Made by a program: the position numbers and the translations under genes. The notes under the pieces are model-generated. The model did not search any database. It saw only the letters and a program-made list of their open reading frames with translations, and was not told the DNA's origin. From assembly GCF_015624505.1 (NCBI RefSeq), contig NZ_CP061379.1, positions 1,550,001 through 1,614,000 on the forward strand: a DNA stretch of 64,000 nucleotides, read 5' to 3'. This DNA is from Bradyrhizobium commune. Its GTDB lineage: Bacteria > Pseudomonadota > Alphaproteobacteria > Rhizobiales > Xanthobacteraceae. This document shows positions 34,448-48,527 of the stretch, one piece after another; position 1 is the stretch's first letter, and each line of letters begins with the position of its first letter.

Positions 34448-34543
34448 CGCTACAGCGACGAAATTCAAGCCGATCTTAATCCGGAGGCAAGATTCGGCGT
34501 GCTAGCAATGCGTCACGGCGGGTTGGACCCCACCCACATCAGT

Positions 34544-34632
34544 CCAAAGGCATGATGCCGCCCCTCCGTACCGGTGAAAGTCCGGTATGTCCCCTCATGA
34601 AAATGTAACGCGTACATAAAGGGACATTCGCA
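34544..34632 (+). promoter_or_regulatory. Structured 5' leader of flagellin gene 1, hides the ribosome site
   Basis: CCAAAGGCATGATGCC hairpin, then TACCGG/CCGGTA hairpin (34569-34574, 34582-34587), then ATGTCCC (34587-34593), which is fully complementary to GGGACAT (34621-34627). The latter overlaps the ribosome site AAGGGA, eight bases before the ATG. The same design precedes the second flagellin. Confidence 0.7.
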
Positions 34633-35541
34633 ATGTCAAGCCTGCTCACGAACTCGACTGCCATGACCGCGCTCCAGACCCTGCGGTCTGTCAGCTCGCA
34701 GCTCGCCACCACGCAGAACCGCATCTCCACCGGTCAGCGCGTCGCTACCGCGTCGGACAACGCCGCCTACTGGTCGATCGCGACCTCGATGCGCGCCGAC
34801 AACGCCGCGCTCTCCGCCGTCTCCGACTCGCTCGGTCTGTCGGCTGCGACCGTCGACACCGAATATACCGCGCTCAACTCGGTTCTCGGCAGCGACGGCA
34901 ACTCCGGCCTGACCAAGCTCCAGTCGCTGCTGGTCGAAGCCAAGACCGCCGGTATCGACCGCACCAAGATCCAGTCGGAAGTCACCCAGATCCAGCAGGA
35001 CATGAAGAACACCGCCAACTCGGCGACCTTCAACGGCGTGAACTGGCTGAGCACGACCACGGCCACGCCGACCACGGTGAACCTGGTGTCGTCCTACTCG
35101 CGTGTCGGCGCCACCCCCACCACCAACTCGATCGCGGTGACCGTCGCCAACTACTCGCTCTACACCAGCTCCACGAGCGGTATCCTGGACACGCCGACCT
35201 CCGGTGTGTCGATCGACAACATGAACATCGGCACGTTGACCGATTCGTCGGCCGACCAGACCACGCTCGATGGTTACATCGCGCAGGTCACCGCGGCGAT
35301 CAATTCGGTCTCTTCCGGCGCCGCCGATCTCGGTGCCATCAAGAACCGCATCTCGAACAACTCGGACTTCGTGAAGTCGCTGATGGATTCGGTGACCCGC
35401 GGTATCGGCCAGCTCGTCGACGCCGACATGAACGCGGAATCGACCCGCCTGGCGGCTCTCCAGACCCAGCAGCAGCTCGGCGTTCAGGCGCTCTCGATCG
35501 CTAACAACAGCAGCCAGAGCATCCTGTCGCTGTTCCGCTAA
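34633..35541 (+). CDS. lafA1: Flagellin, lateral type, copy 1
   Basis: 302-residue flagellin with both filament-core domains: N-terminal SSLLTNSTAMTALQTLRSVSSQLATTQNRISTGQRVATASDNAAYWSIATSMRADNAALSAVSDSLGLSAATVDTEYTAL and C-terminal LGAIKNRISNNSDFVKSLMDSVTRGIGQLVDADMNAESTRLAALQTQQQLGVQALSIANNSSQSILSLFR. The variable middle is short. No signal peptide, as it leaves through the flagellar export channel. Such ~300-residue tandem flagellins are the lateral kind in Bradyrhizobium, whose polar flagellins are far larger. A terminator follows at 35563-35595. Confidence 0.93.
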   Translation: MSSLLTNSTAMTALQTLRSVSSQLATTQNRISTGQRVATASDNAAYWSIATSMRADNAALSAVSDSLGLSAATVDTEYTALNSVLGSDGNSGLTKLQSLLVEAKTAGIDRTKIQSEVTQIQQDMKNTANSATFNGVNWLSTTTATPTTVNLVSSYSRVGATPTTNSIAVTVANYSLYTSSTSGILDTPTSGVSIDNMNIGTLTDSSADQTTLDGYIAQVTAAINSVSSGAADLGAIKNRISNNSDFVKSLMDSVTRGIGQLVDADMNAESTRLAALQTQQQLGVQALSIANNSSQSILSLFR

Positions 35542-35562
35542 GCCTCGGACCACAAGCAAGGA

Positions 35563-35595
35563 GGGCCGCGCTTCTCGCGAAGCGCGGCCCCTTCA
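35563..35595 (+). terminator. Terminator after flagellin 1
   Basis: GGGCCGCGCTTC, TCGC loop, GAAGCGCGGCCC (perfect 12-bp stem) followed by CTTCATTTT. It lies 22 bases after the lafA1 stop and would separate the two flagellin transcripts. Confidence 0.75.
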
Positions 35596-35743
35596 TTTTG
35601 ACGCGGCTCTGGTCGCGCCATGACCTCAATGAGACCGGCTGTGTAGCGGCGGGGTCACAGAGCCACAAGCCTCGCACAAGCTTCGGTCGTTAACCTCGCC
35701 GCTACGACAGATTGGGCCCTTCACCCGCTATCCCGCGGCCCAA

Positions 35744-35822
35744 AGGCATGACGCCGCCCTGCCGTACCGGTGCAAGCCCGGTATGTCCCCAAACTCAATC
35801 AATCTCCAAAGGGACATCAAAG
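35744..35822 (+). promoter_or_regulatory. Structured 5' leader of flagellin gene 2, hides the ribosome site
   Basis: Same layout as before flagellin 1: GGCATGACGCC, TACCGG/CCGGTA (35765-35770, 35778-35783), ATGTCCC (35783-35789) paired with GGGACAT (35811-35817), which overlaps ribosome site AAGGGA. The loop between the arms differs in sequence (21 versus 27 bases), while the pairing arms are identical. Confidence 0.7.
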
Positions 35823-36734
35823 ATGGCTTCCAGCCTGCTTACCAACTCGTCTGCCATGACCGCGCTCCAGACCCTGCGGTCTATCAGCATGCAACTCTCC
35901 ACCACGCAAAACCGCATCTCGACCGGCGAGCGCGTCGCGACCGCTTCGGACAATTCGGCCTATTGGTCGATTGCCACCTCGATGCGCGCCGACAACGCCG
36001 CGCTCTCCGCCGTCTCCGACTCGCTCGGTCTGTCGGCCGCGACCGTCGACACCGAATATACCGCGCTGACGGCGACCCTCGGCAGCGACGGCAATTCGGG
36101 CCTGACCAAGCTCCAGGCGCTGCTGGTCGAATCCAAGACTGCCGGTATCGACCGCACCAAGATCCAGGCTGAAATCACCCAGATCCAGCAGGACATGAAG
36201 AACACCGCCAACTCGGCGACCTTCAACGGTGTGAACTGGTTGAGCACCACCACCGCCACGCCGACCACGGTCAATCTCGTGTCGTCGTTCTCGCGCGTCG
36301 GCGGCACGCCCACGATCAACACGATCCAGGTCACCGTTGCCAACTACTCGCTCTACACCAGCACCACGACGGGCATCCTGGACACGCCGACCTCCGGTGT
36401 GTCGATCGACAACATGAACATCGGCACGCTGACTGATTCGTCGGCCGACCAGACCACGATCGACGGCTACATCACGCAGGTGACGACCGCGATCAACACG
36501 GTCAGCCAGTCGGCTGCCAACCTCGGCGCCATCAAGAACCGCATCTCGAACAACTCTGACTTCGTGAAGTCGCTGATGGACTCGGTGACCCGCGGTATCG
36601 GCCAGCTTGTCGACGCCGACATGAACGCGGAGTCCACTCGTCTGTCCGCCCTCCAGACCCAGCAGCAGCTCGGCGTTCAGGCGCTCTCGATCGCCAACCA
36701 GAACAGCCAGAGCATCCTGTCGCTGTTCCGCTAA
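35823..36734 (+). CDS. lafA2: Flagellin, lateral type, copy 2
   Basis: 303-residue flagellin closely related to copy 1. The terminal domains are almost identical, with differences concentrated around residues 155-185 and 225-235. ATG 35823 is used, directly after the conserved leader; the frame continues to 35712 but that part covers the leader. Two near-identical flagellins probably build one mixed filament. A strong double hairpin follows the stop. The neighbouring fliP and fliF, and the laf-type regulator at the end of the cluster, identify the lateral system. Confidence 0.93.
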   Translation: MASSLLTNSSAMTALQTLRSISMQLSTTQNRISTGERVATASDNSAYWSIATSMRADNAALSAVSDSLGLSAATVDTEYTALTATLGSDGNSGLTKLQALLVESKTAGIDRTKIQAEITQIQQDMKNTANSATFNGVNWLSTTTATPTTVNLVSSFSRVGGTPTINTIQVTVANYSLYTSTTTGILDTPTSGVSIDNMNIGTLTDSSADQTTIDGYITQVTTAINTVSQSAANLGAIKNRISNNSDFVKSLMDSVTRGIGQLVDADMNAESTRLSALQTQQQLGVQALSIANQNSQSILSLFR

Positions 36735-37057
36735 TCGGCGGCTTCGAAAACGACCGTGCTCCCTCAGGGAGCACGGTCCCCGCCGTGAACGGCGGGCCCG
36801 CGTGACACGTTACGTGTCGCCATTGTTGCTCCAGTAACCGGATGTGCCGGCCTGCCATGACGGCGGGCTTCGCGCGACATGTCGTCGATTGCAGATCCCA
36901 GTCCGCGATCACGTTCGGCGCTGCTCGCTCGTCCGCTTCCCATCTCATGCAAAATAGCAACGCCCCGTGCGCGAACTGACGCGACCGTGTTCCGCCGCAA
37001 CCTTCAGACAAGGTTCGCAGCGGAGTGTCCTCATCGTTCGCATTGGTACGAGGTCAC
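36735..37057. other. Intergenic region between flagellin 2 and fliF
   Basis: About 320 bases. It contains the double hairpin (36753-36795) and then sequence without a recognised signal. It must hold a promoter for fliF and the operon that follows. No gene is seen. Confidence 0.4.
36753..36795 (+). terminator. Double hairpin after flagellin 2
   Basis: ACCGTGCTCCC, TCA, GGGAGCACGGT (36753-36777, perfect 11-bp stem) is directly followed by CCCGCCGTGAACGGCGGG (36778-36795). No long T-run follows, so it may stabilise mRNA ends as well as stop transcription. Confidence 0.6.
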
Positions 37058-47769: not shown

Positions 47770-48114
47770 ATGACTTTTGAAGCCTACGAAGCGGTCGTTG
47801 AAGAAAGCGGCCAGGAGGCGCGGGGGCGCGAGCGGCAGGCGTTGAGCCTCGGCATCGACCGGCTGGAGCGGCTCCAGAGAGGGCCTTTCAGCCTCGAGGA
47901 CCTGATCCAGAGCCTGCTTTACGTCCGGCGGCTGTGGACGATCTTCATCGAGGACCTGGCACATCCGGACAACGGATTGCCCGACAAGCTGCGCGCCGAC
48001 ATCATCTCGATCGGCCTGTGGGTCGTCAAGGAAGCGGATCGCCTTCGTGACGAGAGGTCGAACGACGTGATGCAGCTCATCGAAATCAACCGCCTGATCC
48101 GAGACGCTCTCTGA
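47770..48114 (+). CDS. flaF: Flagellar biosynthesis regulator FlaF
   Basis: 114-residue FlaF protein, an alphaproteobacterial activator of flagellin synthesis and export. The core (YEAVVEESGQEARGRERQALSLGIDRLERLQ, then LYVRRLWTIFIEDLAHPDNGLPDKLRADIISIGLWVVKEAD) matches the family. ATG 47770 is the family start; the open frame upstream (from 47608) covers flgL. It overlaps flbT by one base. In Caulobacter FlaF and FlbT have opposing effects on flagellin mRNA, consistent with the structured flagellin leaders in this cluster. Confidence 0.92.
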   Translation: MTFEAYEAVVEESGQEARGRERQALSLGIDRLERLQRGPFSLEDLIQSLLYVRRLWTIFIEDLAHPDNGLPDKLRADIISIGLWVVKEADRLRDERSNDVMQLIEINRLIRDAL

Positions 48115-48527
48115 TGAAGGTATCGTTACGAGCTGGAGAACGGATCTACATCAACGGTGCGGTGCTCCGCGTCGACCGCAAGGTCTCCGTCGAGCTCGTC
48201 AACGACGTGATGTTCCTGCTCGAAGGTCAGGTGATGCAGGCCTCCGACGCCAACACGGCGATGCGGCAGCTCTACTTCATCGTCCAGCTCATGCTGATGA
48301 ACCCGACGGACGTCGATGCTGCCGCCGCGCTCTACGAGCAGCACCACGCGGCCCTGCTCGCGGTGTGCGAGAATCGAGAGATGCTGGACGGGCTCGCCGC
48401 GATCGACGAAATGGTCGGCGCGACCCGCTACTTCGAGGCGCTCAAGCGGATCCGGGCGCTGTTCCCGGTGGAGCAGGCGATCCTGGCTGGCACCACCATC
48501 ACCAATTCCCCATTCGAGGCTGCCTGA
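48114..48527 (+). CDS. flbT: Flagellar biosynthesis repressor/regulator FlbT
   Basis: 137-residue FlbT protein: KVSLRAGERIYINGAVLRVDRKVSVELVNDVMFLLEGQVMQASDANTAMRQLYFIVQLMLMNP is the conserved core, and LDGLAAIDEMVGATRYFEALKRIRALFPVEQAIL the second helix region. FlbT acts on the 5' untranslated region of flagellin mRNA; in Caulobacter it destabilises it, and in Bradyrhizobium diazoefficiens it is reported to act positively in the lateral system. Start overlaps the flaF stop by one base. The two leaders before the flagellins are its likely targets. Confidence 0.93.
   Translation: MKVSLRAGERIYINGAVLRVDRKVSVELVNDVMFLLEGQVMQASDANTAMRQLYFIVQLMLMNPTDVDAAAALYEQHHAALLAVCENREMLDGLAAIDEMVGATRYFEALKRIRALFPVEQAILAGTTITNSPFEAA

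Follow-up and report, generated by a model that had tools for sequence, protein, structure and literature searches.

What are the structured leaders that precede both lateral flagellin genes of Bradyrhizobium commune, what do they do to the flagellin message, and which factor may read them? Both genes lie in a 64,000-nucleotide stretch of the genome (the window), and each is preceded by a leader of approximately 120 nt containing five helices (P1 to P5). The same cluster encodes flaF and flbT, the latter as a preliminary description of the locus had noted. That description, made from the letters alone, had also placed one and the same structured leader ahead of each flagellin; a sequence read with scripted coordinates found all of its elements in place, and its counts (loops of 27 and 21 nt, a ribosome-site spacing of 8 nt) were right. 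By flagellin sequence records, the closest relatives are Bradyrhizobium. The features are listed below, with scores of covariance model R1, which was built from an alignment containing both window leaders.

34505..34632, + strand, leader element copy 1, whole covariance-model match (R1 98.2 bits, E 1.2e-30 in the window)
34516..34521, + strand, P1 5' arm of copy 1, CGGCGG (partner CCTCCG at 34563-34568; one C-U mismatch)
34523..34547, + strand, P2 hairpin of copy 1 (TTGGAC 34523-34528 / GTCCAA 34542-34547)
34549..34559, + strand, P3 hairpin of copy 1, GGC-ATGAT-GCC, i.e., GGCATGATGCC
34563..34568, + strand, P1 3' arm of copy 1, CCTCCG
34569..34587, + strand, P4 hairpin of copy 1 (TACCGG 34569-34574 / CCGGTA 34582-34587, loop TGAAAGT)
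34587..34593, + strand, P5 5' arm of copy 1, ATGTCCC
34619..34627, + strand, ribosome site AAGGGA (34619-34624) and P5 3' arm GGGACAT (34621-34627) of copy 1
34633..35541, + strand, lateral flagellin gene 1, 302 aa, ATG at 34633 (Flagellin_N and Flagellin_C)
35694..35822, + strand, leader element copy 2, whole covariance-model match (R1 100.4 bits, E 2.2e-31 in the window)
35705..35710, + strand, P1 5' arm of copy 2, CGACAG (partner CTGCCG at 35759-35764; one A-C mismatch)
35712..35743, + strand, P2 hairpin of copy 2 (TTGGGCC 35712-35718 / GGCCCAA 35737-35743)
35745..35755, + strand, P3 hairpin of copy 2, GGC-ATGAC-GCC
35759..35764, + strand, P1 3' arm of copy 2, CTGCCG
35765..35783, + strand, P4 hairpin of copy 2 (TACCGG 35765-35770 / CCGGTA 35778-35783, loop TGCAAGC)
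35783..35789, + strand, P5 5' arm of copy 2, ATGTCCC
35809..35817, + strand, ribosome site AAGGGA (35809-35814) and P5 3' arm GGGACAT (35811-35817) of copy 2
35823..36734, + strand, lateral flagellin gene 2, 303 aa, ATG at 35823 (Flagellin_N and Flagellin_C)
47770..48114, + strand, flaF, candidate regulatory partner (PF07309, E 2.2e-31 on 47770-48111)
48114..48527, + strand, flbT of the lateral cluster, clade L, candidate trans-acting factor (PF07378, E 1.5e-40)

The long-range helix P1 encloses hairpin P2 and the GGCAUGANGCC hairpin P3. The CCGG hairpin P4 follows P1 directly, and P5 (UGUCCC/GGGACA) follows P4 directly, in both cases with no gap; P5 is the AUGUCCC/GGGACAU pair over the ribosome site. 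P3, P4 and P5 had been named earlier, and P1 and P2 had been missed. The TACCGG/CCGGTA and ATGTCCC/GGGACAT helices are both present as first written, except that the final A of CCGGTA is also the first A of ATGTCCC, leaving one base contested. Among relatives, P1 occurs, for example, as CGACAG paired with CTGTCG, and P2 takes forms such as TTGAACGG/CCGTTCAA, GTTAACC/GGTTAGC and others.

The P4 loop reads UGNAAGY in many leaders, including both in the window (34569-34587 and 35765-35783), and is not kept in all. This is the pattern of a T-loop, which could dock elsewhere. Strong hairpins also lie 3' of each flagellin gene (35563-35590 and 36752-36778), the first of which scored as terminator-like; their position suggests separate flagellin transcripts.

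The preliminary description had argued for selection on the structure from arms that are identical in the two copies. In two tandem copies this is no evidence by itself; the comparison with other genomes is. Leaders were drawn from 78 distinct loci; flagellin 1 has 576 confirmed relatives, of which the best 80 were used. The sequences 5' of the flagellin starts in these loci yielded 153 leaders, which were dereplicated to 100 and aligned with MAFFT, blind to structure. We named the helices by inspecting sequences that are part of the alignment and then tested the structure on that alignment and on outside leaders. Blocks of the window leaders recur in Hyphomicrobium, Roseibium, Pannonibacter, Ensifer, Rhizobium and others, and a GCATGA-type core is present in 145 of 151 distinct leaders. 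Over the 28 named pairs, 82.8% of the cells in the 100 leaders are paired, and double changes occur at 22 pairs. The covariation score equals 0.237, compared to 0.153 in shuffles, and none of 500 shuffles reached any of the five measures used. When the partners are slid by one column, pairing falls to 51.9% and 42.2%.

Permutation of whole 3' arms resolves the contribution of each helix, with z values that are not probabilities and that relatedness inflates, as it does all of the covariation tests. In the 100 leaders, they equal 8.0 (P1), 9.7 (P2), 7.2 (P3), 7.0 (P4) and 3.9 (P5). With one leader per locus and other Bradyrhizobium removed (45 sequences), the values for P1 to P5 are 5.7, 5.6, 5.9, 4.1 and 2.9. 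The outside set comprised 27 of the 30 best leaders from a search of the order, added without structure; the dropped ones came from the own genome and two congeners. Here, the values are 8.1, 5.1, 3.5, 3.7 and 2.1, in a set that is biased toward paired sequences since the model itself found it and that includes four leaders 89 to 93% identical to an aligned leader over almost the full length. Dereplication to 23 outside leaders gives 7.4, 4.2, 3.1, 3.0 and 1.7. P1, P2 and P4 are thus well supported by covariation, and P3 moderately so. RNAalifold, run on the whole gappy alignment, recovered P3 only.

P5, the pair at the center of the preliminary description, behaves differently. Covariation of this pair, the refuting condition that the description had set for itself, comes out weak. 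P5 shows a few compensated changes, and its covariation, visible in the 100 leaders (the z of 3.9 above), is not significant in the 27 outside leaders, in which 354 of 2000 permutations reach the observed value. The helix is nearly invariant: its arms are identical in 95 of 150 leaders, and all six core pairs are present in 132 of 150, around a loop that varies from 11 to 41 nt. The case for P5 therefore rests on complementarity and energetics.

P5 is predicted to form with a median probability of 0.94 over 148 leaders, 128 of which lie above 0.5; the window copies have values of 0.94 and 0.96. Occlusion of the ribosome site was assessed in 71 leaders, namely those with GG at the site among every second leader. 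The GGG of the site has a median unpaired probability of 0.003, compared to 0.074 when the upstream part is dinucleotide shuffled (284 shuffles), and this probability is below 0.1 in 64 of 71 leaders versus 162 of 284 shuffles. In these predictions, ribosome-site occlusion is above chance, although GC-rich leaders often hide the site anyway. The earlier proposal of a translation switch is thereby supported as a prediction: the six core pairs, the high P5 probability and a site hidden more than in shuffles all point to it. P1, which carries one mismatch in each window copy, has a predicted probability of 0 in copy 2 from energetics alone and exceeds 0.5 in only 64 of 148 leaders. The folding energy of whole leaders is not unusual (z of -1.2 and -0.4).

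Conservation begins sharply at the 5' end of the structure. Among 96 dereplicated leaders, none of the 69 positions before the P1-adjacent base reaches 0.4 bits; that base and P1 are conserved. In Bradyrhizobium leaders, a CTA-like box starts approximately 14 to 15 nt 5' of P1. This fits a transcript start near P1. Separately, CAAGC-type boxes are repeated approximately 20 to 40 nt before P1 in Bradyrhizobium leaders and resemble a regulator or promoter site of lateral flagellins. In S. meliloti, a CtrA motif is reported 5' of flaA, flaC and flaD.

Within the 7.6-Mb genome, the leader is confined to the window. The pattern CCGGTNNAAGNCCGGTATGTCC occurs exactly at two places, both in the window, and at three more places when 3 mismatches are allowed, compared to four for a reversed control pattern. 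R1 likewise recovers the two leaders (E 2.6e-29 and 1.4e-28), followed by a next best match at E 7.9e-4. The four subpolar flagellins of this genome and a flagellin at C1:1673558 are without the leader in the R1 search. The latter gene and a flagellin-like gene at C1:1681821, both outside the window, hint at a third flagellar gene set.

Beyond this genome, R1 matches 57 of 199 genomes in a sample of the order at E 1e-4 (strict filters, 18 candidates per genome), of which at least two (G368 and G388) look false, with no flagellin found behind the matches and fetched FlbTs of clade S. In 241 genomes of the class, composed of the own genome, three of the same order and 237 outside the order, a match at E 1e-5 was obtained in the own genome only (strict filters, 15 candidates scored per genome); the 237 genomes outside the order gave no R1 match.

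The genes behind the leader are predominantly flagellin genes. R1 matches sit at flagellin starts in 151 of 153 cases from 79 sources, 100 of the 153 leaders having trained the model. Each of the 30 top-scoring loci in the order search, among them copy 2 of this genome, lies directly before a flagellin. Twenty weaker or dispersed matches were picked in addition (19 from the order search, plus the E 7.9e-4 match of this genome). Eight of these precede flagellins, seven identified by BLAST and one (L284) by frame reading; six precede genes for methyl-accepting chemotaxis proteins (MCPs; L270, L271, L276, L277, L278 and L279) and one a CheA-like gene (L275). No gene was assigned for L272, L274, L286, L287 and L288, which may be chance matches. 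In sum, 38 of the 50 matches examined lie before flagellins and seven before chemoreceptor or CheA genes. In L104, R1 additionally matches the minus strand ahead of the gene for a globin-coupled MCP. As the model was trained on leaders at flagellin starts, the chemotaxis genes are an unprompted result. Two of the R1 matches without an assignable downstream gene are L274:203-326 (G472, E 1.3e-9) and L272 (G403, E 9.1e-5).

In three chemotaxis-gene leaders (L270, L271 and L104), the start codon adjoins a P5-like helix as judged by eye. In the other five (L275 to L279), the gene start lies farther off and no P5 covers the start region. The chemotaxis matches suggest an upstream recognition domain with a variable output, and those without P5 suggest that P5 is the output and that recognition takes place upstream of it.

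The five-helix RNA, best read as a new family, has no match in Rfam 15 and, as far as tested, a distribution limited to one order. Nowhere in the window does an Rfam family attain its gathering score, and none does so on the leaders in the flagellin loci of 16 relatives, so membership in flg-Rhizobiales or any other Rfam family was rejected. Permissive searches of the window stretch and of L039, L071, L091 and L270 gave below-cutoff matches only, apart from a tRNA elsewhere in L091. The flg-Rhizobiales RNA (RF01736) is likewise a structured RNA in flagellar leaders of Rhizobiales, but it is a different element: it matches neither the window nor the flagellin loci of the 16 relatives and occurs once above cutoff in this genome, at C1:2681331-2681477 (L113; 106.6 bits). 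The gene behind that match resembles a rod gene, presumably flgF, and would belong to the other flagellar system. This cell carries two unlike structured RNAs among its flagellar genes. The P4 loop UGNAAGY also resembles those of the twister-sister hairpin (partial 17-nt match, E 4.6) and the cobalamin riboswitch; neither gives a family match, and the loop varies among leaders. We found no statement on this leader element in the open PMC literature.

Which factor reads the leader? Control by CsrA and FliW likewise sets flagellin output through the mRNA leader, as described in PMC4894983. CsrA itself was rejected as the regulator here, PF02599 being absent from this genome at E 0.001. FlbT is reported to act on flagellin 5' untranslated regions (UTRs), as an activator in Brucella and as a repressor in Caulobacter, and a review calls the mechanism by which it reads flagellin mRNA unresolved (PMC4347634). 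The FlbT-responsive flagellin 5' UTRs of Caulobacter and of Brucella fliC resemble the present case in the flagellin leader, the presence of FlbT in the genome and the posttranscriptional control of late genes. The systems differ in that the reports consulted on those two describe no defined RNA element.

In the order sample, FlbT is present in all 57 leader genomes, and the leader is found in none of the 47 genomes lacking FlbT; 95 FlbT-bearing genomes are without a leader at the threshold used. We fetched 100 FlbTs, which represent 51 of the 57 genomes with a leader and 37 of the 95 without one. By their N-terminal motif, they split into clade L (51 proteins) and clade S (49), which a quick tree, built on few columns and with many inner forks open, parts by one branch (SH-aLRT of 100). 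Every FlbT encoded at most 35 kb from a leader belongs to clade L (43/43), compared to 8 of the remaining 57. Two clade L FlbTs come from genomes in which no leader was detected, in one case from an 11-kb contig. Twelve of the fetched genomes have both clades, and in these it is the L gene that lies near the leader. In B. commune, the window FlbT and the other FlbT of the genome belong to different clades; the subpolar flagellin system has its own flbT and no such leader. As leader and FlbT share a gene cluster, linkage can explain this association as well as coevolution can. FlbT as the reader of the leader is plausible on this circumstantial evidence, for which co-inheritance would account too. 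Assigning the masking hairpin alone as the FlbT target, as was proposed earlier, is too narrow, since the strongest covariation lies in P1, P2 and P4.

The structural model of FlbT (mean pLDDT of 81.2) is rich in strands at its start and helical in the rest. Foldseek returned no match at E 0.001 and no confident known RNA-binding fold; at a second look, most rows span residues 47 onward, a helical bundle, so that the strand-rich N terminus was barely tested. When solved structures were searched by sequence, no convincing match emerged (best E values of 0.04 and 0.028). The N terminus looks CsrA-like by eye, which is a weak lead: a relationship to CsrA was not supported by hhalign against six CsrA sequences, with scores of 16.0 (L) and 21.2 (S) over 15 to 16 columns and probabilities of 4% and 26%, compared to 13.7 (L) and 17.5 (S) for the best of 60 column shuffles each. 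A fragment of the clade S FlbT matches Sm_like at E 0.0079, below the cutoff of that family.

These observations leave some room for a structured translational regulator whose ligand is not FlbT but another flagellar factor, such as a flagellin, FlaF, another protein or a small RNA. The leaderless subpolar system with its own FlbT, the 95 FlbT genomes without a leader and a predicted fold that lacks a confident RNA-binding match (its strand-rich start barely tested) are in line with this alternative. Because the leader-adjacent FlbTs all fall into one clade and published work ties FlbT to flagellin 5' UTRs, we regard it as rather unlikely, albeit the strongest competitor. A less probable alternative still is that the structure serves the stability or processing of abundant flagellin mRNAs, with ribosome-site occlusion being incidental. 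The sharp start of the conserved block at P1 is what a 5'-end structure would show, and Caulobacter FlbT promotes mRNA decay according to a review. Against this, the position at which P5 covers the ribosome site is fixed in most leaders, and occlusion exceeds that in shuffles, which makes a purely stabilizing role improbable in our estimation. A reading of the conserved block as an operator or promoter acting at the DNA level instead of as an RNA is disfavored and very improbable: its position upstream of genes and conserved blocks such as GGCATGANGCC would fit, but compensatory changes occur in several helices, including those with nonadjacent arms, P5 tolerates the loop lengths given above, and the block overlaps the ribosome site. 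Attenuation by a translated upstream frame, hinted at by an AUG in the P3 loop of both window copies (in frame with flagellin in copy 2), was rejected as having next to no probability, since the frames vary: among 140 GCATGA leaders they stop before flagellin in 74, inside it in 33 and stay open over the stretch read in 33, the terminated frames span 3 to 48 codons, and nine further leaders lack GCATGA.

We therefore favor, with moderate confidence, the view that the leaders belong to a cis-regulatory RNA family conserved on late flagellar genes of Rhizobiales, one that gates translation and probably answers to FlbT. In this model, the upstream domain (P1 enclosing P2 and P3, then P4) would be followed by P5 as the output helix, in which UGUCCC pairs with GGGACA and would sequester the ribosome-site GGG, so that translation would be held down by default. 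A trans-acting flagellar regulator, most likely the clade L FlbT of the same cluster and perhaps acting jointly with FlaF or a flagellin, would read the upstream domain and thereby change access to the ribosome site. The Brucella reports, by analogy, would favor FlbT of clade L opening rather than closing P5. Flagellin and, in some species, chemoreceptors would then be made once the hook-basal body is ready. A broader version, which we put forward tentatively and hold to be somewhat less probable than the favored model, is that P1 to P4 form an aptamer-like protein-binding module of a flagellar checkpoint regulon. Clade L FlbT, alone or with a flagellin, would bind several mRNAs, for flagellin and chemoreceptors, and varied output helices such as P5 would turn this binding into control of translation.

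The FlbT literature is in line with a leader family shared by flagellin and chemotaxis mRNAs in Rhizobiales. The question of how FlbT reads flagellin mRNA gains a substrate in a defined RNA whose helices covary and whose output helix is clear. The system offers pairs that can be broken and restored, two adjacent natural copies, a natural negative control in the subpolar flagellins of this cell and a specificity control in the second FlbT clade. For the bacterium, the leader probably allows the cell to withhold filament production until a regulator releases it.
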